A DNA stretch of 35,750 bases, taken from positions 1 through 35,750 of the forward strand of contig JAIYDW010000086.1 in assembly GCA_027487315.1 (NCBI GenBank), written 5' to 3'. Positions 12,946 to 32,104 of the stretch are shown here, piece by piece. Each line of letters starts with the position of its first letter. Positions within the stretch are counted from its first letter, which is position 1. Origin of the DNA: Verrucomicrobiaceae bacterium. Lineage in GTDB: Bacteria > Verrucomicrobiota > Verrucomicrobiia > Verrucomicrobiales > Verrucomicrobiaceae. Under the pieces are notes generated by a model. It was not told where the DNA came from. It saw only the letters and a program-made list of their open reading frames with translations, and ran no database searches. The translations under genes were made by a program, and so were the position numbers.

Positions 12946-13839
12946 CTATTCCAATTTTGCGACACCCCGAATTCGGAAATCGTCATACTGCACATCCACT
13001 GCATTCGTTGTCAAACTGATCAAAGATTTTGTTTCATGGGCGACACCCGGTGACTTGAAACTTCCGATCAGTTTGCCGTCGATAAGCACCTCGATGTTGT
13101 CGGCCTGCGTTCGGGCCGTCAGCGTATACCACTTCTTCAATTCGATCTGCACAGGGACCTTCGAGGTTTTTGTTTCAAGCATGGCCTTTTCGTCTTGAGT
13201 CAATTGATTGGCCTTCTTCCTGTCGTAGAGACCGTTTTCAAGAGTAAACGCACCCGTTTTGGCATCGCTCATGACGACTTGTGTCGGACTTACGGTCACC
13301 TGGCACACATGCCCCGCGTGAGATGTTTTGAGATTCTTGTCGTCAAACCAAAGATTGAAGCTCTTGGCTTGGGAGCTAAGGAACTGAAACTTGACCTCCA
13401 CTTCGAGATCCTTTTCACCCTCAATTCTGATGTTATCGACGGCTGAATGATCTGATCCGGTCGGCGTGATTCCAACCAAAACGCCATCTGTAACAACACT
13501 TGCACTCTTATAATGGCCCCAGCGTTCGCCGAAGGCACCGGCTGAAAAATCATCGGCAAAGATTTCTCGAGTAAAGGGAGATGCCTGCGCGCCGGTCTTT
13601 CGTTTGGAATTCCATGCCTTAATCCATGCCTGATCTTCAGTGGATAGCTGATTAAGCGGAATTTCAAACGGTTGTAGATTGACATTCACTTTGACGATCC
13701 CGTCCTGGGTGAGATCCAACAACTCCGCCTTGATGGTTTTGCCTTCCAGATTGGTCAAGTCCCGAAAATCACGCGCCTGTGCCGCTGACAAGGCGATTGC
13801 AAAATAGAGAATGGAGATATGGGCTTTCATGGTGGACAT
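12946..13839 (-). CDS. Secreted SHD1-domain / LamG-like protein
   Basis: Starts at 13839 (ATG) or 13830 (ATG) are both possible; a GTG at 13842 is less likely. About 297 residues with signal peptide (...MKAHISILYFAIALSAAQA|R). Residues about 22-70 match the SHD1 pattern common in Planctomycetota and Verrucomicrobiota exported proteins (RDFRDLTNLEGKTIKAELLDL..., IPLNQLSTEDQAWIKAW). The rest, from about 90, is a beta-sandwich resembling DUF1080/LamG (FADDFSAGAFGERWG..., WYTLTARTQADNIEVLIDG). The role is unknown, perhaps binding of polymer outside the cell. It lies between the dehydrogenase (68 bases upstream) and the beta-helix gene. Base composition is lower in GC than its neighbours. Confidence 0.75.
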   Translation of the reverse strand: MSTMKAHISILYFAIALSAAQARDFRDLTNLEGKTIKAELLDLTQDGIVKVNVNLQPFEIPLNQLSTEDQAWIKAWNSKRKTGAQASPFTREIFADDFSAGAFGERWGHYKSASVVTDGVLVGITPTGSDHSAVDNIRIEGEKDLEVEVKFQFLSSQAKSFNLWFDDKNLKTSHAGHVCQVTVSPTQVVMSDAKTGAFTLENGLYDRKKANQLTQDEKAMLETKTSKVPVQIELKKWYTLTARTQADNIEVLIDGKLIGSFKSPGVAHETKSLISLTTNAVDVQYDDFRIRGVAKLE

Positions 13840-13907
13840 CACGAAAGCCTAGTTTAAGCCCGTTGCCAAGTCGCGGTTGCAACCTCACAGCATCGTCAAC
13901 GACCCAA

Positions 13908-14936
13908 CTAAACCGGACGCAAGACGCTTTTAACGACCTCACCCTCGTGCATCTTTTCAAAGGCCTCATGCCATTCTGTCACGGGCCAGACTCCCCCAAT
14001 GATCGGCTTCACGTCAAATTGCCCGCTCGACAACAAAGCAATAACACGTTCCCAAATAGCCCAGTTATGGCTGAAACTGCCTTGCAGAGTGATGTTTTTC
14101 TGAACCAGCGGGTCAATGTTGAAACCCAGCGGCTGGGGACCCCAGCCCACCTTGCTAATCCATCCCGCAGGACGCACGATTTCTAAGGCAATTTTGAGAG
14201 TGATACTGGCACCTGCTGCATCGATGACTCCATCACATCCAAGGCCGTCTCGCTCGAACGCCCAAGGTTTTGCATCGCCAATAATCACTTCACAGCCATA
14301 GTGTTTGCGGGCTATCTCCAAACGGTGAGCATCCTGGGGTAGTCCCACAATGGCAACTTCGGCACCACACAACCGTGCCATCGCTGCACACAGGATTCCG
14401 ATGGTGCCTGGACCCAGAACCACCACTCGATCTCCGGGCTCAATTCGAGCGTTTTTGACCACCGCATTGTAAGCGACGCAGCACGGCTCCGTCAGACAGG
14501 CTTGTTCAAATGGCAAATGATCTGGGATCGAATGCAAAATTCGACTGGGCACGCGAACATATCTGGTCATCGCACCGTCTACCCCGTAACCGAAGCCTTT
14601 GCGTGTGGGATCCAAATTATAGAGACCCCGCCTGGTCATCGGATTGTGAGGACTGATGATGGCAGCAGTTTCAGACACCACTCGATCTCCCTCCCGCCAC
14701 CCTTCCACATCCTTGCCGACCTCGACGATGCACCCACCAAACTCATGACCCAGAACGACGGGGTAGTTTACTTGCCAAGAATGATCTGCGGTCCACTGGT
14801 GTAGATCAGAGCCGCAAACGCCGACATTGGCGACTTCGATAAGCACATCCTCGGAACCAATGGATGGCGCCTCTATTTCACGGATTTCGACGGACCCTTT
14901 TTCGGGGGCAAAGTTGACAACGGCTGTGGATTTCAT
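13908..14936 (-). CDS. Medium-chain Zn-type dehydrogenase lacking structural-zinc cysteines
   Basis: I prefer the ATG at 14936 (MKSTAVVNF), because family members begin close to this point; an upstream ATG at 14957 would add seven residues. About 342 residues. The catalytic-zinc ligands are present (GVCGSD, Cys41; GHE, His64 and Glu65) and the NAD(P) site is GPGTIGIL. The structural-zinc lobe, normally CGxCxxC...C, reads ISPHNPMTRRGLYNLDP: the four cysteine positions are Ser95, Asn98, Thr101 and Asp109 with no insertion or deletion. The surrounding ETAA...RKGFGYG is well conserved, so this looks like substitution, not misalignment. The substrate is probably a polyol or sugar alcohol. It is divergent from the PdxA-family gene. 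Confidence 0.85.
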   Translation of the reverse strand: MKSTAVVNFAPEKGSVEIREIEAPSIGSEDVLIEVANVGVCGSDLHQWTADHSWQVNYPVVLGHEFGGCIVEVGKDVEGWREGDRVVSETAAIISPHNPMTRRGLYNLDPTRKGFGYGVDGAMTRYVRVPSRILHSIPDHLPFEQACLTEPCCVAYNAVVKNARIEPGDRVVVLGPGTIGILCAAMARLCGAEVAIVGLPQDAHRLEIARKHYGCEVIIGDAKPWAFERDGLGCDGVIDAAGASITLKIALEIVRPAGWISKVGWGPQPLGFNIDPLVQKNITLQGSFSHNWAIWERVIALLSSGQFDVKPIIGGVWPVTEWHEAFEKMHEGEVVKSVLRPV

Positions 14937-15094
14937 GGAAGTACACCACTTCGCCATCTATGCCAGTAGTTGTCCACGACAAAGACTGTGCGAAATGCGC
15001 TTCACGGTTCGATCCCATAGACTTCCCTTTCTTCATCATGACAGCAGAGCGAGTGCCTGTGACAAGCGAAGAGCTTGCTCGAACGTCGCAACCG

Positions 15095-15123
15095 GGCATG
15101 GTATGCCACTGGCAGTTTCTGCC
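15095..15123. promoter_or_regulatory. Two adjacent 13-bp palindromes in the dehydrogenase-PdxA gap
   Basis: GGCATGGTATGCC (15095-15107) and GGCAGTTTCTGCC (15111-15123) are both perfect inverted repeats with a three-base centre, three bases apart. They lie in the gap between divergent genes, 21 bases before the PdxA start. They may be a paired operator; which regulator binds is not visible. Confidence 0.4.
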
Positions 15124-15143
15124 TCGTCAATCACGCACCAATC

Positions 15144-16157
15144 ATGATCAAACCTGTCATTGCCATCACCATGGGAGACCCTGCTGGGGTTGGTCCCGAG
15201 GTTTGTCTGCAACTACTTGCCAACCAGGAAGTGGCAAGCTTTGCCACCCCCGTCATCTTTGGGGACGCACGCCTGCTTGCCCGTTGCGCCCGTCAAACAG
15301 GCCTTCCCCCTGCCAAACGGATCATCTCTGAAATCGACTGGGCCGAGCAGCACGACAAAGTAACTGAACCGGCCGTGCTGGATATCTTTGGCTTGGATGC
15401 CGAAGACTTTGCTCCGGGAGTCGTGAGCGCCAGGACCGGTGCCGCTGGTTATCTTTATGTGGAGAGGAGCATCGAAGCAGCCATGGCTGGACAAGTTGCT
15501 GCCGTCGCCACTGCCCCCCTAAACAAAGAGGCCCTTCGCGCCGCTGGCATCATGTATCCAGGCCACACGGAAATCTTCGCAGATAAGACCGGTGCCAACC
15601 GGGCTTGCATGTTTCAATACAGCAACGAAGTCCGCGCCAGCTTTGTCACCGTTCATTGCGGCTATCATGAAGTGCCTGGATTACTCACTCTAGAACGCAT
15701 TCTGGACGTCATCGAACTTACGGCCGATGCAATGCGGCGTATTCGCGGAACAGAACCTAGAATCGCTGTTCTTGGGCTCAATCCTCATGCTGGCGAGCAT
15801 GGATTATTCGGGAACTGCGAGGAAGAGCTCATCATCATTCCTGCCATTGAGGCTGCGCGCGCCAAAGGCATTCAAATCGAAGGTCCACTGCCGCCAGATA
15901 CGGCCTTCATTCCCGCCAAACGCCGCAGCACCGATGCCTTCATCTGCATGTACCACGACCAGGGCCATATTCCCCTCAAAGCGCTCGCTTTCGACACCGC
16001 CGTGAATACGACTCTCGGCCTGCCCATCATTCGCACGAGTGTCGACCATGGCACGGCTTGTGACATCGCTTGGCAAGGCAAAGCCAGCGGCAGTAGCCTC
16101 GTGGAAGCGGTCCGATTAGCCGTCAAATTGGGCTCCAAAACGTCGGCCCATTCCTAA
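15144..16157 (+). CDS. pdxA: PdxA-family hydroxyacid-phosphate dehydrogenase
   Basis: The start at 15144 (MIKPVIAITMGDPAG) matches the family N-terminus; an in-frame ATG 69 bases upstream lies in the regulatory gap. 337 residues, normal for PdxA. Visible motifs: ITMGDPAGVGPE, YPGHTE (His141), and three metal ligands His171 (VTVHCGYHE), His215 (NPHAGE) and His271 (MYHDQGHIPLK). The family oxidises and decarboxylates 4-hydroxythreonine-4-phosphate, or in catabolic relatives (PdxA2, DtnX-type pathways, TphB) tetronate phosphates or diols. No pyridoxine gene is nearby, and no DUF1537 kinase, so a catabolic role is more likely than vitamin B6 synthesis. It is convergent with the DapA-like gene, with eight bases between. 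Confidence 0.9.
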   Translation: MIKPVIAITMGDPAGVGPEVCLQLLANQEVASFATPVIFGDARLLARCARQTGLPPAKRIISEIDWAEQHDKVTEPAVLDIFGLDAEDFAPGVVSARTGAAGYLYVERSIEAAMAGQVAAVATAPLNKEALRAAGIMYPGHTEIFADKTGANRACMFQYSNEVRASFVTVHCGYHEVPGLLTLERILDVIELTADAMRRIRGTEPRIAVLGLNPHAGEHGLFGNCEEELIIIPAIEAARAKGIQIEGPLPPDTAFIPAKRRSTDAFICMYHDQGHIPLKALAFDTAVNTTLGLPIIRTSVDHGTACDIAWQGKASGSSLVEAVRLAVKLGSKTSAHS

Positions 16158-16165
16158 ACGCGGCA

Positions 16166-17284
16166 TTAAAACTTGATGCCCAGTCGTCCCGCTACCCGCT
16201 TCGGACGGCGCAGCGCTTCGGCCATGCGAGAGGCTTCATCGGTTTCGCGCAAGTCCTTGCAAGCTGGATGCGCTTCAGGTGAAGCGATGATTCCGAGGTT
16301 ATGCAAAACATGCGCCGTGCTGTGCTTGTAGGCTGAGGCACTCATGTTTGCATCAAGCCGAAAAACCTGATCCTCCAACGATTGGAAGGCTTCAAAAACT
16401 TTGTAAACCCGGGTATCAAAGCGCCCCGTTCCAGTGGTAAACTTCTTTTGTGGCGAGTCATCGCTAAGCCACATGTCCTTTGCTGCGCAAATGAGTGGCG
16501 CCCCGCTCACGGCAGCTCCGATAAGAAGTGGTAAGCCGAGCTTGATCGCAGTGGCGATGCCAAAATCATCGCCACTGTGCGGAGCGAAATCGAGCCCTAG
16601 TTCGCGACACATCGCAGCCCAATACAGAAAATGGGGCTCGTCCAAGGTGCTAATCTTGCCACCAACAAACTTGGGGTGCATCGCCAATTGATGCAGCAGC
16701 CACGGGCCAAACGGACGCGCCCACGGCACGAAGGCTGGCTCCAAGGCGTGGACGATGCCCGGGCGAATCAACCACTCGGCTATCTCGTAATAAGCATCGC
16801 GGCATGGCTCGGGATCGAGGGCGCTGAGCCACTTCGAGGTCATGAGCATCACCTCGCAATGATCATGCTGCTGCACGATGTCGATCAGCGGGCGGTAGCG
16901 CTCAACCTTGAACGACGTGTCGGCTTCAGCACCACGTGCCGTGACACCTGCTATGAACTTCTTGGTCGGAAACTCCTCACGAAACCGTCGCAGCACCTCG
17001 GCGTAGAGTGCATCATCGAGATCAAAGATATAGCCTGTGTCAGCGTTCAGCACGACGACGAGTTCGACACCAAAATGATCGGCTGTCGCCTGCATCCAGC
17101 GGATGCTCGCCACAAAGCCCTCCCAGTCAGGCTTTCCCTCACGGAAGGGCAGCAAAGCCGCTGCGCAAAGTCGCGGCTTGGCGATATGGTCGATGAGTTC
17201 CTCCTCTCCAGTCCACGCCCACTTGGTGTCCAGCCAAGAGGTTTTTGGTGAGAGGTCCGCTGGTTTTGAGATGAGTGCATTCAT
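16166..17284 (-). CDS. DapA-like (dihydrodipicolinate synthase / DUF993-like) aldolase
   Basis: A 372-residue soluble protein without signal peptide. It has a TIM-barrel pattern with early strand CAAALLPFREG, then FIAGVTARG, VMLMTSKW and FVGGKISTLDE. Lys210 in the GGKIS strand is where class I aldolases of the DHDPS superfamily carry the Schiff-base lysine. The length (372, not about 295) and the tail (SGDDF..., YKHSTAHVLHNLG) fit the larger 'dihydrodipicolinate synthase family' proteins such as DUF993 that sit next to Gfo/Idh/MocA and isomerase genes. The reaction is probably cleavage of a keto-acid or keto-sugar. Last gene of the LysR-linked operon, 16 bases after the Gfo gene. Confidence 0.78.
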   Translation of the reverse strand: MNALISKPADLSPKTSWLDTKWAWTGEEELIDHIAKPRLCAAALLPFREGKPDWEGFVASIRWMQATADHFGVELVVVLNADTGYIFDLDDALYAEVLRRFREEFPTKKFIAGVTARGAEADTSFKVERYRPLIDIVQQHDHCEVMLMTSKWLSALDPEPCRDAYYEIAEWLIRPGIVHALEPAFVPWARPFGPWLLHQLAMHPKFVGGKISTLDEPHFLYWAAMCRELGLDFAPHSGDDFGIATAIKLGLPLLIGAAVSGAPLICAAKDMWLSDDSPQKKFTTGTGRFDTRVYKVFEAFQSLEDQVFRLDANMSASAYKHSTAHVLHNLGIIASPEAHPACKDLRETDEASRMAEALRRPKRVAGRLGIKF

Positions 17285-20326: not shown

Positions 20327-20949
20327 GGGGCAAAGCTCGGTGTCACAACCACATGGCGAAACGCGCCAAGATCATCAAAGGAACCCAGTCCGATGCGTCC
20401 CTTGGCGAACGTTTTGTCGATCGCTTCCAGCACGAGTTGAGTGTCAAACCAGACCTTGATGCTGCCGGATGCGGCATCACGCATCAGTTTGATCTGATGC
20501 CAGTGGTTCGGCTGCCAGGGTAGAGTCTTCGCACGATTCGTTGTGATCGCTTGGCGGTCCGCGTGGTTCACCACATGCAGTTGGAGATGCACACCGTCTG
20601 CCGTTTCGCCAAGATGTGCGTAGTAGAACTCGGACTCGCTGCGGCCACCGAAAGCGATGCAGACATCGTTGTTGCCCTTGTTGAAGACATCGAGCCGTGC
20701 TTCGCAGGTGAGTGTGAAGGAATCCCACTCCGCGCCGCCAAACCAGGCCAGATTGAACGGCCTGCGGACCTTCGGCTTGTAATGCGAAGGCTTTTTCAGA
20801 ATGAGCGTCGTCGCCTCACCCTCGCCTTGCCATTCCCAGGCGGCGGGGTCTTCGAGCTGCCACTGAGCACATTGCTGGAGCGGGTGCTCCGCCAGCAACG
20901 AACTGGCAGCCATGAGGCAAAGAAGGAGCATGGCAGAGAGTTTACGCAT
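20323..20949 (-). CDS. Secreted DUF1080/LamG-like protein
   Basis: The start at 20949 (MRKLSAMLLLCLMAASSLLAEH) gives a good signal peptide and overlaps the isomerase stop by eight bases; an ATG at 20961 is the alternative. About 208 residues, a single beta-sandwich domain: WDSFTLTCEARLDVFNKGNNDVCIAFGGR, YYAHLGETADGVHLQLHVV, WHQIKLMRDAASGSIKVWFD, KGRIGLGSFDD. This is the DUF1080 pattern (PF06439), a family that includes 3-keto-disaccharide hydrolases and other LamG-like folds. It is shorter than some members. Its role in the operon may be to hydrolyse or bind an oxidised glycoside outside the cytoplasm. Confidence 0.78.
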   Translation of the reverse strand: MRKLSAMLLLCLMAASSLLAEHPLQQCAQWQLEDPAAWEWQGEGEATTLILKKPSHYKPKVRRPFNLAWFGGAEWDSFTLTCEARLDVFNKGNNDVCIAFGGRSESEFYYAHLGETADGVHLQLHVVNHADRQAITTNRAKTLPWQPNHWHQIKLMRDAASGSIKVWFDTQLVLEAIDKTFAKGRIGLGSFDDLGAFRHVVVTPSFAP

Positions 20950-21757
20950 AGAGCCGTGCATAGCTGGTCGCGATTTGATCGAGGAACTCGCCCTGATCGC
21001 CGCTCCACCATTTGTGGGAGAAGATTTCGACCTCGCGATGGCCAGTGAAGCCGGTGGCGTCCACCCAATCGCTGATTTCGCGGATGTTGATGCAGCCTTC
21101 GCCCATCAGGCCACGGTCGTTGAGGAGATCGGTGGTGGGCGTTTTCCAATCGCAGATATGGAAGGCGTGCAGGCGACCTGTTTGGCCTGCGAGATCAATC
21201 TGCGACTTCAACTCCGGGTCCCACCAGACGTGATAGACATCCACCGCGATACCCACCGAAGCGGGCGAACCGAGCGCATCGCAAATCTCATGCGCCTGGC
21301 GCATCGTGTTCACCGCGCTGCGATCATCGGCATACATCGGATGCAGCGGCTCGATGGCGAGTTTCACGCCCGCAGCCTCCGCCGCAGGCAAACTGGCCGC
21401 GATACCGTCGGTGATCTGTTTGCGCGATTCGGCAAAACTTTGCCCCGGAACGGCTCCGCAGACCAAAACGATGAGCGGAGCGCCGATGGCGTGCGCTTGC
21501 TCGATGGCGAGGAGATTGTCGTCGATGGCTTTCTGCCGGTCCGCAGCCGATTTGGCCGGGAAAAAGCCGCCACGGCACAAACTGACCACTTCCATGCCCG
21601 AATCGGCTGTCTGACGCTTCACGGCATTCAAATCACGGCCTTCCAGCGCCTGCCGCCAGATGGTGATGCCGCTCACGCCGCGCTTCGGAAACTCGGCGAG
21701 GCATTGTTCGAGGCTCAGGGGCTTCGTGGTGATGGTGTGGACGCATAGACGACTCAT
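20942..21757 (-). CDS. TIM-barrel sugar-phosphate isomerase/epimerase-like protein
   Basis: A 271-residue protein without signal peptide, of the AP_endonuc_2 superfamily (PF01261; xylose-isomerase-like barrel). The four metal ligands of the family can be placed: Glu136 (VKLAIEPLHP), Asp173 (AVDVYHVWWD), His200 (LHAFHICDW) and Glu244 (HREVEIFSHKW). Family members isomerise or epimerise sugars or inosose. Here it is the first gene of the operon, and a secreted DUF1080-like protein follows, so a role in keto-sugar or sugar-acid metabolism is likely. No Shine-Dalgarno: the ATG lies five bases after a perfect TATAAT, so the mRNA may be leaderless. Confidence 0.9.
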   Translation of the reverse strand: MSRLCVHTITTKPLSLEQCLAEFPKRGVSGITIWRQALEGRDLNAVKRQTADSGMEVVSLCRGGFFPAKSAADRQKAIDDNLLAIEQAHAIGAPLIVLVCGAVPGQSFAESRKQITDGIAASLPAAEAAGVKLAIEPLHPMYADDRSAVNTMRQAHEICDALGSPASVGIAVDVYHVWWDPELKSQIDLAGQTGRLHAFHICDWKTPTTDLLNDRGLMGEGCINIREISDWVDATGFTGHREVEIFSHKWWSGDQGEFLDQIATSYARLYA

Positions 21758-22713: not shown

Positions 22714-22728
22714 AGGTAGTTCCTACCT
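22714..22728. terminator. Possible small stem-loop between convergent genes
   Basis: AGGTAG-TTC-CTACCT is a perfect six-base stem with a three-base loop, just after the LysR stop and covering the alpha-2-macroglobulin stop codon. It has no T-run beyond TTT, so termination activity is only a guess. Confidence 0.3.
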
Positions 22729-25700
22729 TTCCGCCACCTTGTCATTGCCACCAGGGAGAGTGATCACTCTTTGAATTGGGCTTAATCCGTATTTAGAAGG
22801 CTCATACATCGCCTCAATCTTGGCTGGTGGAGCCACGGTATCGCCCTCGGCGATGACCCGAGCCAGGTAATGCAGCACAAACTTACCCTTTGCAGGTGCA
22901 TGATCCGTGAAGAAAAGGGCGCGATTGGCATGCAATTCACGATGGTCGCAGAACCATGGTTCATAATCGTCGAATGGACCGTCCTGACGCTCACTCTGGG
23001 TTTCAAAAGCTGGGTTCATCGCCTCAAACACAGACGGCAGTGAGTCCTCGACGGCAAGATATCGATCTCCTCCCCCTATGTCGATTCCGAGGGAGATCCG
23101 AACGAGATCACCCACTCGCAAATCGTCAGCGGGTGCTGTGCTCCCATCTGGCAGAACCTTTCGGTAATCACGCGTTATGCCATACCCATGGTTTTCACCG
23201 GCAAACTCGCGGCCTCGAGGATGCCCTCGAACCTCCATTCGCACCCAAGCCGATTCGTCTTTCGGCACCTGAACCGTTAGGGGCGCGTTTGCCCGTTTGG
23301 CACCAAGGGAAAGTTCGATTTCCCCTAGGGGCTTTTCGGCACTTAGTTGCACCGTCTCCTGGATATCAGCCCAAGCAATCACGGCGTTTATTGGATGGCC
23401 GGTGGCTTGACGACTGCGCTCATATGCCGCCAAAGCCGTAAGCGTCCACGCATTGGAGTAGGTATTGCCCCACTCCCCATTCAAGTTACGGGCACTCCAG
23501 AGTTCATTTGCGATTGTGTCGGCAGACTGAGCTAAACCCATGTGCGTATAGGCCAGTAATCGAAGGGCTCTGTTGGGGCCGTCACCCGCCCAGTGACGTA
23601 ATCCAGAAACTGGCACTGGCACCTGCGACTCTGCAGGATTTCCCACACCCAATAAGATTTTGACTTGATCCTCTGGACCATCGGATATGAGCATCGCTAG
23701 AGAAAGGTAGAGCTTAGCCGCTTCAGGCAATCGCCCCCGCCGCTCGAATAACAGCGTGTGATAAGCAGGCTCTGGTCGTTTGGCTTTCGCCAGAGTGTAA
23801 AGAGACAAAGCAGCATCCGTGATGAGGTACGAGTCCGTCTCTGTATCGAGACCTCGCAACTTTTTCGCCAAATACTCCATCAAGCCATCAACCACTTCTG
23901 CAGGCATTTGTGCCCCGGCATCTCGGGCGCGCAGTAGCATCAATCCACCATAGGCCGAACCCCAGAGATTGGGCTCTGATCCTCCAGGCCAGTAAGCAAG
24001 GCCGCCCTCACCCTCAACGACCATTTGGAGAAGCCGATTGACTCCTTTTTGGATCGCTTCACGAGAGCGTGCAGGGTCCAGTTGCTGCGGAAACAAATTG
24101 TGAAACCCACCCAAGGCGAGCCATGGCATGGTCGCAGACGTCGTCTGCTCAACACACCCGTACGGATATCTCAGCAGATAGTTCAAACCATCACGCACTT
24201 CAGTGAGTCGGGTGGTCGTTAAATTGACTTTGATCGCTCCTTGGGCTTCAAGGATCTCAGGGTTGACCTTGGCAAGAAGATTCAAGGGACCTTGAGGCTC
24301 GGCGTTCACAGCCAATTTTGGTTTCGTTTTTTCCTTGGACTTGGTTTTCGATTGACCTTTGTTCGCGGGCGGAGCGGAAGGCGCAGGTGGTGGTTTAGAA
24401 GGATTGGTAACACGGGCATAACGCACTTCTTTAAGTTCAGGCACTGGATGTGAAACTTCAAACCGTGACTCGGTGGCATCCATCAATGAGGAACCGCCCC
24501 CGACACTCTTCACACTCCATTGCCAAACAGTTTCACCGATACCCTCAAATCGCACAGGGAAAACCGTCGCTACCGAAGCTCCCCCTGGCACAATCACTTT
24601 TCGCAGCAGCTTTAAAGGCTCAGCTCCAACTTCGACAGCAGTCCCAAACGGACGCGCCTCCACGATAAAAGAGGCGCCCGCATCAAGTTGCAAAGACAAC
24701 TCCACCTCGCGTTTTTCTGGCGTCGTATTGTGCACAATGCCCTTGATCAGAACCTCATCGCCCAAACGAGCAAAGCGAGGCACCACCGGTTCCACCATAA
24801 GCGGCTTATTGACAGTGAATGCAGAAGAGCCTTGGCCAAATCGCTCGGCACCTGCGCTAACCACTGCCATCAATCGATACCGGGTAAGATTGTCTGGCAC
24901 CTTAACCGTGCTCAAACTGCGGCCTTCAGCGTCTGTCAGCGCACTGGCAACCCAAAGGGGCGTGGCTACAAAATTCTTCCGGGTCTGTTGTGGGGCATCA
25001 CCCTCCTCTCCACCTCCACCCACTAAAAAACCCTTATTGGCTCGCACTCGATCTTCTGGCGCTTCGCCGAGAAGATTCTCGATCGATGTGTAGTTCGCGA
25101 AGGTTAGTTGGAACAGTTGGTGAAAAAAATCATCTGGATTCGGTGTCTCAAATCCAGTGAGACTCAATACACCCTCATCGACGGCAAAAAGCGTGACATC
25201 CGCACCTGGCAAAGGCATACCACGAGAGTCCTTCACCACAACCGAAACAGGTAAGTGGGAACCCGGCAAAACCTCTGGCTTATCCGGCGTGACAACCACA
25301 TTCAAATCCAAAGAATCTGAAGGCACCAGGATTTCCGTGTACCCAACGCGATACTCCGGCAGGGAATGCTTCTTTCCACTTGCCGCTGCGCCACGGACCA
25401 CCACAACAGAGACAAAAACATTGGGAGAGTCCGTCTCACCAATTGGAACGCGAATGATGGGATCATCAAGCGTGTAGGACCTCACAAAATGTTGGTGTAA
25501 CCGATTTCGCTCGACGGTGATAAGCGCTGTGCCCTCAATAGGACATTGAATGGCAATGACTGCCTCACCCCCTGGTTTCACCTCTTTGCTCTCTGGTTGC
25601 AACGTAAGTCGCACCCCATTTTCGATTCGCCAGGGATACTCGCCTTTGCCAATCACAAACATCGCCAATCGAGAAAACGCCTTCACACCATCGGCATCCT

Positions 25701-28668
25701 GAGTGGTCACCGTGACAAAGTAGCTTCCGCCGCGAGTCGGCGTGAAGGTGTATGCGGAGGGTTTGCCAGAAATGGACACCCTCTCACGTTTTTCTTCCTT
25801 CAACACAACGGTGGTCTCAGTCGTCATGGCACCTCCCGCAGTTTCCACCTTTACCGTTTGGTATTCCTGACGCTCCACCACGACTTCCGCCGTTACGCCT
25901 ACCGAAGCTGGCTTCCCATCTCCATCCAAAACCGCCAATTCGAGGCGCACCGCTTCGCCCGCTCGCCCGAATCCCTCTGACTCTCGAATGCCTGGCAAAA
26001 TTTTGGCTCCTGGCACTCGCAACGTGGCGTGACTGCTGAGAGTTTGTTGATTCAGGTCAGTGAGATCCGTTCTGATTTCAATGAGTTGTGGAAAGGCCGA
26101 CCGATGTGGCGGCGGCATGGGCAATGGAAGCACAGCCGTGCCGTCTTCCGAAAGCATCAAATCACCACTGACAAACCAATCACTCCCATCGTCTTCAGAA
26201 TAGGAAGGCTGGCCATCACCATAACCAGCCCAGCCAGGGGCATCGCCAAAGTGGTAGTCGCTAAACTCGTCCGGTGGTTCAAAACCTGGAATACTCGATG
26301 CACTCCATTCGATCTCAGCCTGGCTGAGCGGTTTTCCCATGTAATATCGGGCTGTCAGCGGGACTTGGATGCGATCCTTTTCAACACTGGCTTTGGCAGT
26401 TTGAATCTCAACTTCAAAGGTATTTGGCCGATAATCCTCCACTCGGAAGTAGTGGTATCCACCGCTCTCTTCGTTCTGTTCGTCTGAGTCATCGTCGCCA
26501 TGAGGAAACTCGATGTTGAGACTGTAACTACCCAGAGGGCCCTCTGGTAGCTTGAACTCAGTCGCGTAGCTGCCATTCGCCGCAAAGGTGATCTCCTCAT
26601 CCCTAATGAGACGGTAGCGCGCATCTCGAAGCTTCAGCCGCGCTTTGCGTTCTTGACCCTCTAATGTTAGGGAATCCCCCACCTGAAGGCGCGTCATGGC
26701 TTTCAGGAACATCGTGTCGCCAGGACGATACAGGTCACGATCTGAAAAGATGAATGTTTTACGGCTCGGCTGCCAAACATTTCGCCAGGAACGATCAATC
26801 TCATAGCCATAAACGTTCCAAAGTTCCGACCCACTTCCTAAAGTGTCGAGCACCGCACAATCCTGCCCCAGTTCCGCCAGAGCAAAAACGGCTTCATTGG
26901 AAGCAATCCGGGCGACTCCGTTGGCGTCTGTCTCACCATGCCCCAGCAACTTCCGATCCCGATCAAGCAAAGTCACACGGGCCCCCACCGCAGGTGCTCC
27001 CGTCTCCAGATGGGTCACAAAGAGAAGTTGATCTTTGCCGGATGCCTTCATCATGAGCCCCAAATCGGTGCTCTCAACGAGGGTCTGCGTGATGATTCGC
27101 TTGTCCTCAAGCCCTTCCATCGCAAAACCCTCAAACTCCAGGAACACAGCTCCCGCCCCGCCAGTATCGCTGAGCAACTCTCGCCAGTTGAGCTGAATGA
27201 CATCAGACTGATCAAGCGGCTTGTTGAACCGAAATTCTCGATCAAGCATCCAGTCGCCCGGATACTTCTCAATCGACTCTGGCTTGAAGGCCCTGCGTTT
27301 CTCAAGCTTTCGCTCAAAGGCATTGTCGTAGCCACGATAAAGCTCTCGCGCTTCCAATAACTGTGGGCCATTCAGGCGTTTCGCGCGAACGCGTACATGC
27401 GTCACGTTAGCTGCGGTGACTTCAAAAATCCCAGTGCCACGGGCCAGCTGACTCCTGGCAAACGCAGGCGCCGAAACGTAAGGCGGATTCGGTTTGAAGG
27501 TCACAACCTGATCCATCACCGCTTCTTCGAGCAGCAAATCATCCCAGGCTTCAATGCCTGGCGCGACCGTGATACGATACTCCGTGCCGAGAACAAACGG
27601 ACCATGAAGACGCACAGTATCGCCCATCAACTCCAGCCGAGTTCCCTCCAATTCGGGCACCACCACCACATGTTCTGCCAAACCCGCAAGCATAGCAGCT
27701 TGCGCCGCTTTCGTCTCCTCCGGCGTTTTTCCGGCAACCTCTGCCTTAAGCCGCTTGTTGAACGCAATATCGATGTGGTAAGGCCGATCAAACGGTGTGT
27801 GTCCCGTGATTGACTCCACGGCAAGCGGCAGCACCGAACCCAATTTGACGACCTGATCTCGGCCGAGCGATGCCTGGCCACTACTGTTCGACAAGGACTT
27901 CGAAACGACAAGCTCCCAACTCGCCGCGACGGGAAGCGGATCCTCGGGCTCCACAAACAGCGCGCTCAGCCGCTTATCCCCTTCGCCTAACTTGGGCTCA
28001 ACCCCACTGATAGCCTCCGTCCATGTCGCCTGAAGTGACGAGTAAGTCATGCTAAGATCCTTCTTCTCGACATGCCTCACTCGAGCAGGAACCGATTGCA
28101 CGGGATCGGTGCTGCGAAACACCATGTGTGTGTTGGCATCCAGCGCATTGACTTGATCATTGAACTGGAAGAGCAGCGCCCGCCGCCGGGGGATGTCGTT
28201 GGTTCCAAACCATTTGGGGTCCTGATCCAAAATGGCAAAACCCGCCGTGTTCACTCGATCAAGCAAGTCCGTGTCCAGTTTCTTCCCGGTCAGATCCACA
28301 AGCCCAACGCTAAGCCGGAAGTCATACTCTTGATTGAAGCGTGGAACCTGTTTGAGTTTGTAGATTCCGCTGCGGGAACTGGTCCACTCAAAAATGCCTT
28401 CAAGCGGCGGTTCGATTCTCAAGGGGCTCACTTCCGCAGGTTTGCCGACAGCCTCCGGCTTGACCATCGGACTTGGAAAAACCAGCGTGATTGTGGATTC
28501 CGGGGCCAAATTCGCAGGCGAGATGGTCATCTCAGCAACCAGCGGCGCGTCTTCATCGGACTTCTCTTCTTTCTTGGATTCCGCGCTCAAAGACACCGCA
28601 ACCAGTGCTGATATCACCCCCAGGAATCCCAACGCTCTCGTAAACCGCACAAACAATCTTGCTTTCAT
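22723..28668 (-). CDS. Alpha-2-macroglobulin family protein
   Basis: The ATG at 28668 is chosen for its signal peptide (MKARLFVRFTRALGFLGV..., cleavage near SLSA|E); the upstream in-frame ATG at 28752 adds non-hydrophobic residues. 1,981 residues. Parts recognised: MG2-like domain near residue 650 (DLYRPGDTMFLKAMTR), A2M domain about 1240-1310 (VPDNLTRYRLMAVVSAG, VEPVVPRFARLGDEV), a Pro/Lys-rich linker about 1420-1450, and the thioester site YPYGCVEQTTS with Cys1505. Bacterial members are periplasmic traps for proteases. Unlike E. coli YfhM no lipobox cysteine is present, so this one is probably soluble in the periplasm. No PBP1C gene is adjacent; a lipoprotein hydrolase is divergent instead. 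Confidence 0.93.
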   Translation of the reverse strand: MKARLFVRFTRALGFLGVISALVAVSLSAESKKEEKSDEDAPLVAEMTISPANLAPESTITLVFPSPMVKPEAVGKPAEVSPLRIEPPLEGIFEWTSSRSGIYKLKQVPRFNQEYDFRLSVGLVDLTGKKLDTDLLDRVNTAGFAILDQDPKWFGTNDIPRRRALLFQFNDQVNALDANTHMVFRSTDPVQSVPARVRHVEKKDLSMTYSSLQATWTEAISGVEPKLGEGDKRLSALFVEPEDPLPVAASWELVVSKSLSNSSGQASLGRDQVVKLGSVLPLAVESITGHTPFDRPYHIDIAFNKRLKAEVAGKTPEETKAAQAAMLAGLAEHVVVVPELEGTRLELMGDTVRLHGPFVLGTEYRITVAPGIEAWDDLLLEEAVMDQVVTFKPNPPYVSAPAFARSQLARGTGIFEVTAANVTHVRVRAKRLNGPQLLEARELYRGYDNAFERKLEKRRAFKPESIEKYPGDWMLDREFRFNKPLDQSDVIQLNWRELLSDTGGAGAVFLEFEGFAMEGLEDKRIITQTLVESTDLGLMMKASGKDQLLFVTHLETGAPAVGARVTLLDRDRKLLGHGETDANGVARIASNEAVFALAELGQDCAVLDTLGSGSELWNVYGYEIDRSWRNVWQPSRKTFIFSDRDLYRPGDTMFLKAMTRLQVGDSLTLEGQERKARLKLRDARYRLIRDEEITFAANGSYATEFKLPEGPLGSYSLNIEFPHGDDDSDEQNEESGGYHYFRVEDYRPNTFEVEIQTAKASVEKDRIQVPLTARYYMGKPLSQAEIEWSASSIPGFEPPDEFSDYHFGDAPGWAGYGDGQPSYSEDDGSDWFVSGDLMLSEDGTAVLPLPMPPPHRSAFPQLIEIRTDLTDLNQQTLSSHATLRVPGAKILPGIRESEGFGRAGEAVRLELAVLDGDGKPASVGVTAEVVVERQEYQTVKVETAGGAMTTETTVVLKEEKRERVSISGKPSAYTFTPTRGGSYFVTVTTQDADGVKAFSRLAMFVIGKGEYPWRIENGVRLTLQPESKEVKPGGEAVIAIQCPIEGTALITVERNRLHQHFVRSYTLDDPIIRVPIGETDSPNVFVSVVVVRGAAASGKKHSLPEYRVGYTEILVPSDSLDLNVVVTPDKPEVLPGSHLPVSVVVKDSRGMPLPGADVTLFAVDEGVLSLTGFETPNPDDFFHQLFQLTFANYTSIENLLGEAPEDRVRANKGFLVGGGGEEGDAPQQTRKNFVATPLWVASALTDAEGRSLSTVKVPDNLTRYRLMAVVSAGAERFGQGSSAFTVNKPLMVEPVVPRFARLGDEVLIKGIVHNTTPEKREVELSLQLDAGASFIVEARPFGTAVEVGAEPLKLLRKVIVPGGASVATVFPVRFEGIGETVWQWSVKSVGGGSSLMDATESRFEVSHPVPELKEVRYARVTNPSKPPPAPSAPPANKGQSKTKSKEKTKPKLAVNAEPQGPLNLLAKVNPEILEAQGAIKVNLTTTRLTEVRDGLNYLLRYPYGCVEQTTSATMPWLALGGFHNLFPQQLDPARSREAIQKGVNRLLQMVVEGEGGLAYWPGGSEPNLWGSAYGGLMLLRARDAGAQMPAEVVDGLMEYLAKKLRGLDTETDSYLITDAALSLYTLAKAKRPEPAYHTLLFERRGRLPEAAKLYLSLAMLISDGPEDQVKILLGVGNPAESQVPVPVSGLRHWAGDGPNRALRLLAYTHMGLAQSADTIANELWSARNLNGEWGNTYSNAWTLTALAAYERSRQATGHPINAVIAWADIQETVQLSAEKPLGEIELSLGAKRANAPLTVQVPKDESAWVRMEVRGHPRGREFAGENHGYGITRDYRKVLPDGSTAPADDLRVGDLVRISLGIDIGGGDRYLAVEDSLPSVFEAMNPAFETQSERQDGPFDDYEPWFCDHRELHANRALFFTDHAPAKGKFVLHYLARVIAEGDTVAPPAKIEAMYEPSKYGLSPIQRVITLPGGNDKVAER

Positions 28669-28836
28669 AAATAGGGAAGATTTGACGGCGCACCATCGCA
28701 AAACTTCAAACGAAAGCGAGCACAGACAGACGTCTAACAAAAATGTTTCCAAGAGTGATCCTAGTAACCCTCAGCTTGACCCCGACTCATTCTTGACGGA
28801 GACACTGGTCGGTAAAACACCCATTCACGACTGGAA

Positions 28837-30417: not shown

Positions 30418-31272
30418 TCATTTCCAAGCTTGCGCAATCTGCATCGAGCTCCCCAAACCCTCCACACCGAGTTCCACCACATCCCCTGGCTTCAAAAACT
30501 TCGGCGGCTTGAAGCCCAGGCCCACTCCCGGTGGCGTTCCCGTAGTGATCACGTCCCCAGGCAGCAAAGTCATAAACTGACTCACATAACTCACCAGCGT
30601 GCGCACCCCAAAAATCATCTGCTGCGTGCTGCTATTCTGAATCAACTCACCATTCAACTTCAACCAAAGCTTCAAATCCTGTGGATCCGGAATCTCGTCC
30701 GTCGTGGCGATAAATGGCCCAATCGGAGCAAACGTATCGCAACTCTTTCCCTTTACCCATTGACCGCCTCGCTCCAACTGCCACTCGCGCTCACTGTAGT
30801 CGTTGTGCAAGACGTACCCCGCGATATGTTCCAATGCCTGTTCTTCCGAGACGTGGGACGCTTTCTTGCCAATCACGAAGGCTAACTCCACCTCCCAATC
30901 CGTTTTCACCGAGTTCTTCGGAATCACAATCGGATCATTGGGTCCCACGATCGCACTCGTCGCCTTAAAAAAGAGAATCGGCTCCTTTGGAATCTCCGCC
31001 CCGGACTCCTTGGCATGGTCCGCATAATTCAAACCAATGCATACGATCTTGCTAGGCCTCGCCAGCGGCGGCCCAAGCCTCACAGATTCATCTACCGTCG
31101 GAGCCTTCGCCTCATTGGCAGCAGCCCAGGTTGCCAATCGATCCAAACCATCTCCCCCAAAGAAGGCCTCGTCATAGTCCTGACCAAAGTCCGAGACATC
31201 AATACGACGGCCGTCTTCAAGCAGAAGACCGGGCTTCTCTTGTCCTGGGTTGCCAAAGCGAATGAGTTTCAT
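30418..31272 (-). CDS. Fumarylacetoacetate hydrolase family protein
   Basis: The start at 31272 (MKLIRFGNPGQEKPGLLLEDGRRIDVSDF) is typical of the family; upstream ATGs lie inside the SDR gene. 284 residues. The motifs IVCIGLNYADHAKES, DWEVELAFVIG (Glu127, Glu129 metal ligands), HNDYSEREWQ (Asp158) and GDVITTGTPPGVG define the FAH fold (PF01557). The close match to the ureidoglycolate-lyase / 2,4-diketo-3-deoxy-L-fuconate hydrolase branch and the upstream SDR suggest C-C bond hydrolysis in a non-phosphorylating deoxy-sugar-acid pathway. Same strand as the SDR, 46 bases downstream. Confidence 0.9.
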   Translation of the reverse strand: MKLIRFGNPGQEKPGLLLEDGRRIDVSDFGQDYDEAFFGGDGLDRLATWAAANEAKAPTVDESVRLGPPLARPSKIVCIGLNYADHAKESGAEIPKEPILFFKATSAIVGPNDPIVIPKNSVKTDWEVELAFVIGKKASHVSEEQALEHIAGYVLHNDYSEREWQLERGGQWVKGKSCDTFAPIGPFIATTDEIPDPQDLKLWLKLNGELIQNSSTQQMIFGVRTLVSYVSQFMTLLPGDVITTGTPPGVGLGFKPPKFLKPGDVVELGVEGLGSSMQIAQAWK

Positions 31273-31318
31273 ATCAAAAAAGGAACGGTGCTTAAAGTTG
31301 CATGTCGGATGGCGAATA

Positions 31319-32104
31319 TCACTCAACGCTGCCTTCGTAGTTCGGATAACGACCAATAATCGGATACTGTTCCAACTCCGCCACAGTGCCAGAGATCGGC
31401 CGACTTTCATGCCCCACCCAATAGACCGCCGCCCCGGCAACCTCCTCTGGTGTCGTCAATCGTCCAGCAGGTGCCGCATACGCAGGCACATGATCCGGCC
31501 AATCCGCCGGCAATCCATCCCCCATTTTCACCTGATATTCATTCTCCGTGAGCGTCCAGCCCACATTCAGTTGGTTAAATCGTACCCCATCCGTACCCAG
31601 CGCATCCGCCAAATTCCGAGTCATCGTCATCAACGCCCCCTTCGACATCGAATACGCCAGCAAATTCGCCTGCCCGCAATGCGCCAACACCGACCCAATG
31701 TTCAAAACACACCCCCGCACCTCCTTCAGCGCAGGCAAAAGCGCACGAATCAAAAGCATCGGTGCCCGAGCATTCACCGCAAGAATTCGATCAAAAAAAG
31801 CCGCATCCGTGTCCTGAATTCGCGCCCTCGTCGTCAAAGCCGCATTATTCACCAAACAATCGATCCGACCAAAGGCCGCCAGCGCATCCTTCGCCAATTG
31901 CTCTGGATACGAAGCATCAGCCAAATCACCCTGACAAAAAGCCGCGTTCCCCTCTCCCAAGGAATCCCGCAAAGCCTGCCCGCGAACCGCATCCCGCCCA
32001 TGCAATACCACTTTCGCCCCTTCCTGCACAAATCGCCGTGCCATATGCTCCCCGATGCCAGTCGTGCTTCCGGTGATTAGAATGATTTGGTCTCGCAATC
32101 GCAT
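31319..32104 (-). CDS. Short-chain dehydrogenase/reductase
   Basis: A 261-residue SDR: TGSTTGIGEHMA (NAD(P) site, TGxxxGIG), NNAA at residues 86-89, catalytic Ser138 (NIGS), Tyr151 and Lys155 (YSMSK). It is classical in length and order. With the following FAH-family enzyme it looks like 2-keto-3-deoxy-L-fuconate/rhamnonate dehydrogenase plus hydrolase. The minus strand here is G/T-rich in codon ends, unlike the minus-strand genes left of 22 kb. No strong Shine-Dalgarno. The substrate is inferred from context only. Confidence 0.88.
   Translation of the reverse strand: MRLRDQIILITGSTTGIGEHMARRFVQEGAKVVLHGRDAVRGQALRDSLGEGNAAFCQGDLADASYPEQLAKDALAAFGRIDCLVNNAALTTRARIQDTDAAFFDRILAVNARAPMLLIRALLPALKEVRGCVLNIGSVLAHCGQANLLAYSMSKGALMTMTRNLADALGTDGVRFNQLNVGWTLTENEYQVKMGDGLPADWPDHVPAYAAPAGRLTTPEEVAGAAVYWVGHESRPISGTVAELEQYPIIGRYPNYEGSVE

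Follow-up and report, generated by a model that had tools for sequence, protein, structure and literature searches.

How does a dehydrogenase keep a structural-zinc lobe from which all four cysteines have gone, and in what pathway might such an enzyme work? The question is raised by a 35,750-nucleotide stretch of a Verrucomicrobiaceae genome (the window), in which a 349-residue open reading frame on the minus strand (13908–14957) matches both ADH_N (86.1 bits; cut-off 23.5) and ADH_zinc_N (61.5 bits; cut-off 31.8) above the Pfam cut-offs and so belongs to the medium-chain dehydrogenase/reductase (MDR) superfamily. Alignment with relatives bore out what a first-pass annotation, made from the letters alone, had read in this gene: the structural-zinc cysteines 1 to 4 are replaced by Ser102 (14652–14654), Asn105 (14643–14645), Thr108 (14634–14636) and Asp116 (14610–14612; all minus strand), with no residue gained or lost, as the x2, x2, x7 spacing equals the C-x2-C-x2-C-x7-C of homologues, and the flanking ETAA, YNL and RKGFGYG are all present. 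That annotation had numbered the four positions 95, 98, 101 and 109, seven lower than here, because it counted from Met8. The lobe (residues 96–125, ETAAIISPHNPMTRRGLYNLDPTRKGFGYG; codons 14583–14672, minus strand, placed by arithmetic) aligned without insertion or deletion against the more distant L096 (42% identity) and L097 (36%). A check for cysteines displaced to elsewhere in the lobe found none in these residues; a lone lobe cysteine occurs in one family member, L085, at the position of Arg110. The catalytic-zinc ligands, given earlier as Cys41, His64 and Glu65, are retained as Cys48 (14814–14816) and His71–Glu72 (14742–14747), as is the conserved active-site Glu157 of a TEP motif (14487–14489; all minus strand).

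A search of GTDB-based contigs gave at least 580 encoded relatives, of which the best 80 (82–98% identity; Verrucomicrobiota and Planctomycetota) were examined, a sample therefore biased to close relatives. Together with five loci from phylum genomes (L092–L095 and L111) and the window, they form a set of 86 sequences (>55% identity; the same two phyla). None of the four structural-zinc cysteines was found in any of the 86, while Cys48, His71, Glu72 and Glu157 were conserved in all. The first lobe position is Ser in 61, Asp in 24 and Asn in 1; the second is Asn in 83 and Ser in 3; the third is Thr in 63 and Ser in 23; and the fourth is invariably Asp (86 of 86), a pattern that is not due to chance. 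Mean column identity was 0.914 for lobe residues 96–125 versus 0.904 for residues 8–349 (48 sequences); the lobe is conserved as much as the remainder and is therefore under constraint rather than decaying. An AlphaFold2 model, made from a shallow 48-row input alignment of 82–98% identity, was poor (mean pLDDT 58.1, with the lobe below 50) and is uninformative. The protein thus has the residues expected of a catalytic-zinc MDR enzyme (catalytic Cys, His-Glu and distal Glu), and where C-x2-C-x2-C-x7-C would mark a structural zinc the window has S-N-T-D, with none of the four cysteines in 90 of 90 family sequences. These residues support a dehydrogenase that would carry the catalytic zinc only, its lobe being predicted to be zinc-free.

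Outside the two phyla, four homologues on haloarchaeal plasmids (56–58% identity) all have D-S-S-D. All 18 more distant aligned sequences, which are next-best matches rather than a random sample and represent 17 distinct genes (L003 and L006 being the same gene), have C-C-C-C. MDR paralogues of the window's own genome (L002, L004, L005, L007 and L009) lie outside that set; L002 has lobe cysteines, and L004 and L005, of other MDR classes, have none or an incomplete set in the compared stretch. The dehydrogenase was present in 59 of the 68 genomes of the window's taxonomic family, and of 288 genomes sampled across the phylum, 11 had a match of at least 61% identity, with the next match at 41%.

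A FastTree phylogeny of 107 sequences, with an outgroup as root, placed all 90 cysteine-free sequences in a single clade (support 0.844; stem branch 0.54), with all 17 C-C-C-C sequences outside it and L096 (C-C-C-C) as its sister. For this tree, rows with 120 or more gaps were left out, L006 and the second MDR of L096 were removed, and L116 and the four haloarchaeal proteins were added. The clade comprises S-N-T-D (55 sequences), D-N-S-D (14), D-N-T-D (7), D-S-S-D (7), S-N-S-D (6) and N-N-T-D (1). D-S-S-D occupies the deepest branches (the haloarchaea, L095 and two of the three loci L092–L094), and S-N-T-D is the crown pattern. This placement puts the probable loss of all four cysteines at a single point, the base of the family; from the branching, rather than from a formal ancestral reconstruction, we read a likely order of C-C-C-C to D-S-S-D to D-N-S-D to S-N-T-D.

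What the enzyme oxidizes was approached through its family, its binding residues and its neighbours. Among solved structures, threonine and sorbitol dehydrogenases come nearest. L-Threonine 3-dehydrogenase (PDB 2d8a and 2dfv) is the closest of these (E 2.2e-42) and also the top NCBIfam match, but in the alignment it has lobe cysteines where the window protein has none. The top NCBIfam matches all lie far under their cut-offs, which speaks against both L-threonine 3-dehydrogenase (182.3 of 380 and 170.3 of 458.35 bits) and the scyllo-inosose 3-dehydrogenase IolM (170.2 bits; cut-off 450). Human sorbitol dehydrogenase (PDB 1PL6) aligns with the window protein over most of its length (E 1.9e-34). 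Of the seven sorbitol-binding residues postulated in PMC11519228, a Ser and a Glu are kept in this alignment, judged by eye, and five are replaced (Tyr51, Phe119, Thr122, Arg299 and Tyr300 by Q54, G121, Y124, S296 and H297), so sorbitol itself is an unlikely substrate and assignment as a sorbitol dehydrogenase is disfavoured. The sequence motif of the polyol-dehydrogenase (PDH) family, as printed in the same paper, matches 90 of 90 family sequences; it also matches 12 of 17 outgroup sequences and therefore fails to separate the present family. Leu206 (14340–14342, minus strand) replaces the acidic NAD-binding residue that ends the second Rossmann strand in threonine dehydrogenase, a hint of NADP+ or relaxed cofactor use; 89 of the 90 family members have this Leu, as do several of the C-C-C-C outgroup sequences. 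Our best reading of these features is of a putative single-zinc dehydrogenase of the PDH family, probably acting in sugar or polyol catabolism.

Gene neighbourhoods in relatives bear on the same question. A hexulose-6-phosphate-synthase-like (HPS-like) gene lies directly upstream on the same strand at 56 of the 75 loci with at least 1.2 kb of upstream sequence, mostly less than 130 bases from the dehydrogenase; its best family match is hexulose-6-phosphate synthase, with keto-gulonate-phosphate decarboxylase models weaker. Downstream, a barrel protein (sugar isomerase/epimerase-like), an SDR or both were found at 28 of 52 loci with 7 kb of sequence (barrel 27, SDR 17), and at 11 of 50 loci with long flanks neither these nor the HPS-like gene was nearby. 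An operon of HPS-like enzyme, dehydrogenase without the zinc lobe's cysteines, SDR and isomerase/epimerase-like barrel recurs in PVC bacteria (L078, L049, L139 and most of L012–L091). Inspection of recurrent neighbour clusters in PVC bacteria identified no kinase, and we recognized no description of the operon or of the dehydrogenase family among the papers that our searches listed, as judged by titles and the starts of abstracts. In the window's genome, orthologues of the operon genes are on other contigs (HPS-like on C106, 82%; barrel and SDR on C254, 76% and 71%). In the window itself, a PF06439 protein (3-keto-disaccharide hydrolase family; 12946–13842, minus strand) follows just downstream on the dehydrogenase strand, and PF06439 relatives likewise come after the dehydrogenase in several Verrucomicrobiaceae.

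At all four haloarchaeal loci, the same barrel accompanies the dehydrogenase, together with a ketohexokinase (PF25270) and a DeoC/LacD aldolase (Pfam run on L112). In Haloarcula hispanica, mannitol and sorbitol are described as being oxidized by PDH-family enzymes, followed by ketohexokinase and aldolase (PMC11519228), an arrangement like that of the four loci, although the genes differ and the pathway as presented there has no sugar epimerase step. By this analogy, the present dehydrogenase would act on a polyol or sugar and yield a keto sugar. The oxidation of a polyol, one of two substrate types first proposed for the window's enzyme, thereby gains indirect support from the PDH motif and the haloarchaeal ketohexokinase and aldolase neighbourhood.

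The second substrate type proposed was a hydroxyacid, and for both types an oxidative decarboxylation was suggested to follow, in a pathway shared with the PdxA-family gene on the other side (15144–16157, plus strand), which is divergent from the dehydrogenase with 187 bases between them and is probably not part of the same unit. This neighbour scores 353 bits against the TIGR00557 cut-off of 290.35, and PdxJ is present in the window's genome and overall in 11 of 12 genomes tested, as would be expected of a vitamin B6 PdxA. For PdxA2 (D-threonate 4-phosphate dehydrogenase) the score was below the cut-off (NF002891, 294.9 of 583 bits), and the acid-sugar kinase expected beside such a gene had no match in the window. 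The solved structures nearest to this neighbour are nevertheless of that D-threonate-phosphate kind, and PdxA2 is reported also to perform the PdxA reaction (PMC9997740). A PdxA match was found in 64 of the 68 family genomes, mostly in single copy and most often 70–77% identical; with PdxJ so widespread, vitamin B6 synthesis is therefore an ordinary alternative. Orthologues from G234, G302, G313 and G340 group with the window's PdxA, and those of G313 and G340 adjoin an acid-sugar kinase gene, so a threonate or erythronate role is possible for it. The window's genome also has a second PdxA (contig C150), 62% identical, which overlaps an acid-sugar kinase gene (PF07005) and with it is likely to form a threonate/erythronate unit (L146, 2291–4389).

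Both genes are present in 57 genomes (the 59 with the dehydrogenase minus G322 and G339, which had no PdxA match). They lie within 25 kb of each other in 9 of the 57, being adjacent in 5, and far apart on one contig in 2; in the rest they are on different contigs, many of the assemblies being fragmented. Roughly 1% of random gene pairs would lie within 25 kb in a 6-Mb genome, and the nine close pairs, from three genera, exceed this rough chance expectation, an excess that could be explained by shared ancestry of gene order. The two genes are on opposite strands in all nine close pairs, including all five adjacent ones, and are divergent in seven. Of the shared pathway read into the divergent pair, then, linkage in some lineages holds, and a dedicated partnership is weakened.

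These pairs lend some support to a reading in which the dehydrogenase acts on an aldonate or another hydroxy acid and is partnered by either PdxA or the HPS/KGPDC-like enzyme in an oxidative (or UlaD-like beta-keto-acid) decarboxylation; the weaker matches of the upstream enzyme to keto-gulonate-phosphate decarboxylase models would fit it, and PdxA adjoins the HPS-like gene in G300. We consider it unlikely but deserving of some weight, because PdxA is on the dehydrogenase strand in none of the nine close pairs, the two genes are apart in most of the 57 genomes, the haloarchaeal homologues instead accompany a ketohexokinase and an aldolase, and the best match of the HPS-like enzyme is hexulose-6-phosphate synthase, which is no decarboxylase.

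More doubtful is a cyclitol pathway, with an IolM-like dehydrogenase acting on a keto-inositol alongside an IolG-like Gfo/Idh/MocA protein and an IolO/IolE-like barrel. IolM is about equal second among the NCBIfam matches of the dehydrogenase, and the top matches are IolG for the Gfo/Idh/MocA protein, IolO for a barrel at 20942–21757 and IolE for the operon barrel, but all of these scores are far under their cut-offs (for example, 170 versus 450 and 58 versus 355 bits).

Other genes of the window were noted in passing. Next to the inositol-dehydrogenase-like Gfo/Idh/MocA gene is one for a 372-residue protein (16166–17284, minus strand), which has matches in 64 of the 68 genomes of the taxonomic family and no Pfam or NCBIfam family at 0.001; we take its sequence to resemble a DHDPS-type barrel. 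An FAA-hydrolase-type protein adjoining an SDR (30418–32104, minus strand) has 2,4-didehydro-3-deoxy-L-rhamnonate hydrolase as its top NCBIfam match (360 bits versus a cut-off of 500), and the pair looks like the end of a deoxy-sugar acid pathway. A 2009-residue open reading frame spans 22723–28752 (minus strand).

Loss of the structural zinc without deletion of the lobe had been called uncommon, which is overstated, since yeast xylitol dehydrogenases and human sorbitol dehydrogenase have already been reported to lack this zinc while retaining the lobe (PMC9895041). The zinc-free lobes of polyol dehydrogenases listed in that paper have the patterns S-S-Y-C, S-S-T-C, D-S-M-D, D-S-S-D and R-D-C-S; D-S-S-D equals the basal pattern of the present family, and the R-D-C-S row is, on our reading of the 1PL6 alignment, presumably human sorbitol dehydrogenase. 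According to the same source, the loops resemble each other with or without zinc, being held by a salt bridge or hydrogen bond in human sorbitol dehydrogenase and T. brockii alcohol dehydrogenase, and in xylitol dehydrogenase the lobe forms a contact of the tetramer; replacement of the cysteines is proposed to run via Asp first, mutagenesis is said to be unable to strip the structural zinc from MDR enzymes without damage, and the route of natural loss is called unclear. The yeast xylitol dehydrogenases (P. stipitis, S-S-Y-C; S. cerevisiae, D-S-M-D, without any of the four cysteines) are likewise medium-chain polyol dehydrogenases with a catalytic zinc and a kept lobe in which Asp/Ser-type residues replace cysteines; they are eukaryotic and at most distantly related, whereas the present family is bacterial and archaeal and runs from D-S-S-D to S-N-T-D. 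Human sorbitol dehydrogenase also retains the lobe without the cysteine set, but keeps one lobe cysteine where the window protein has none. Structural-zinc loss is thus a known phenomenon, to which the present family adds a new, deep example from bacteria and archaea.

The lobe might instead still bind a metal, either a hard one (Ca2+ or Mg2+) or zinc through oxygen ligands, given that in all 90 sequences each of the four positions is oxygen-bearing and never hydrophobic, with Asp always at the fourth, and that certain archaeal enzymes have Asp or Glu among the ligands of their structural zinc (PMC9895041). This seems to us very improbable: the archaeal cases given there retain three cysteines (D-C-C-C and E-C-C-C), S-N-T-D offers one carboxylate and otherwise weak ligands, and the zinc-free lobes described there have the same kind of residues. 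Slighter still is the chance that the lobe turned, via D-S-S-D, from a sulphur zinc site into an all-oxygen hard-metal site (Ca2+ or Mg2+), which, if true, would give the MDR superfamily an alternative structural metal, retained by halophilic archaea and PVC bacteria alike.

As a whole, we give a probability of about 0.62 to a PDH-family dehydrogenase with the catalytic zinc only, derived by a single ancestral loss of cysteines and oxidizing a polyol or sugar in carbohydrate catabolism. Its ancestor would have lost all four structural-zinc cysteines once and retained the lobe, probably as a subunit contact in tetrameric enzymes; hydrogen bonds or salt bridges from its Asp, Ser, Asn and Thr side chains would now hold it in place. 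Within carbohydrate catabolism, the enzyme would carry out one step, the NAD(P)+-dependent oxidation of a secondary hydroxyl to a keto group in a polyol or sugar. Relatives would probably hand the resulting keto compound to the sugar isomerase/epimerase-like barrel and next to an aldolase-type enzyme, which may be the HPS-like enzyme in PVC bacteria and the DeoC/LacD aldolase, after ketohexokinase, in haloarchaea.

The neighbourhoods point to a strongly conserved, uncharacterized carbohydrate operon in PVC bacteria. The family itself forms a natural series, with C-C-C-C outside, D-S-S-D deepest and then D-N-S-D and S-N-T-D, which makes the Asp-first proposal (PMC9895041) testable in a bacterial and archaeal lineage.
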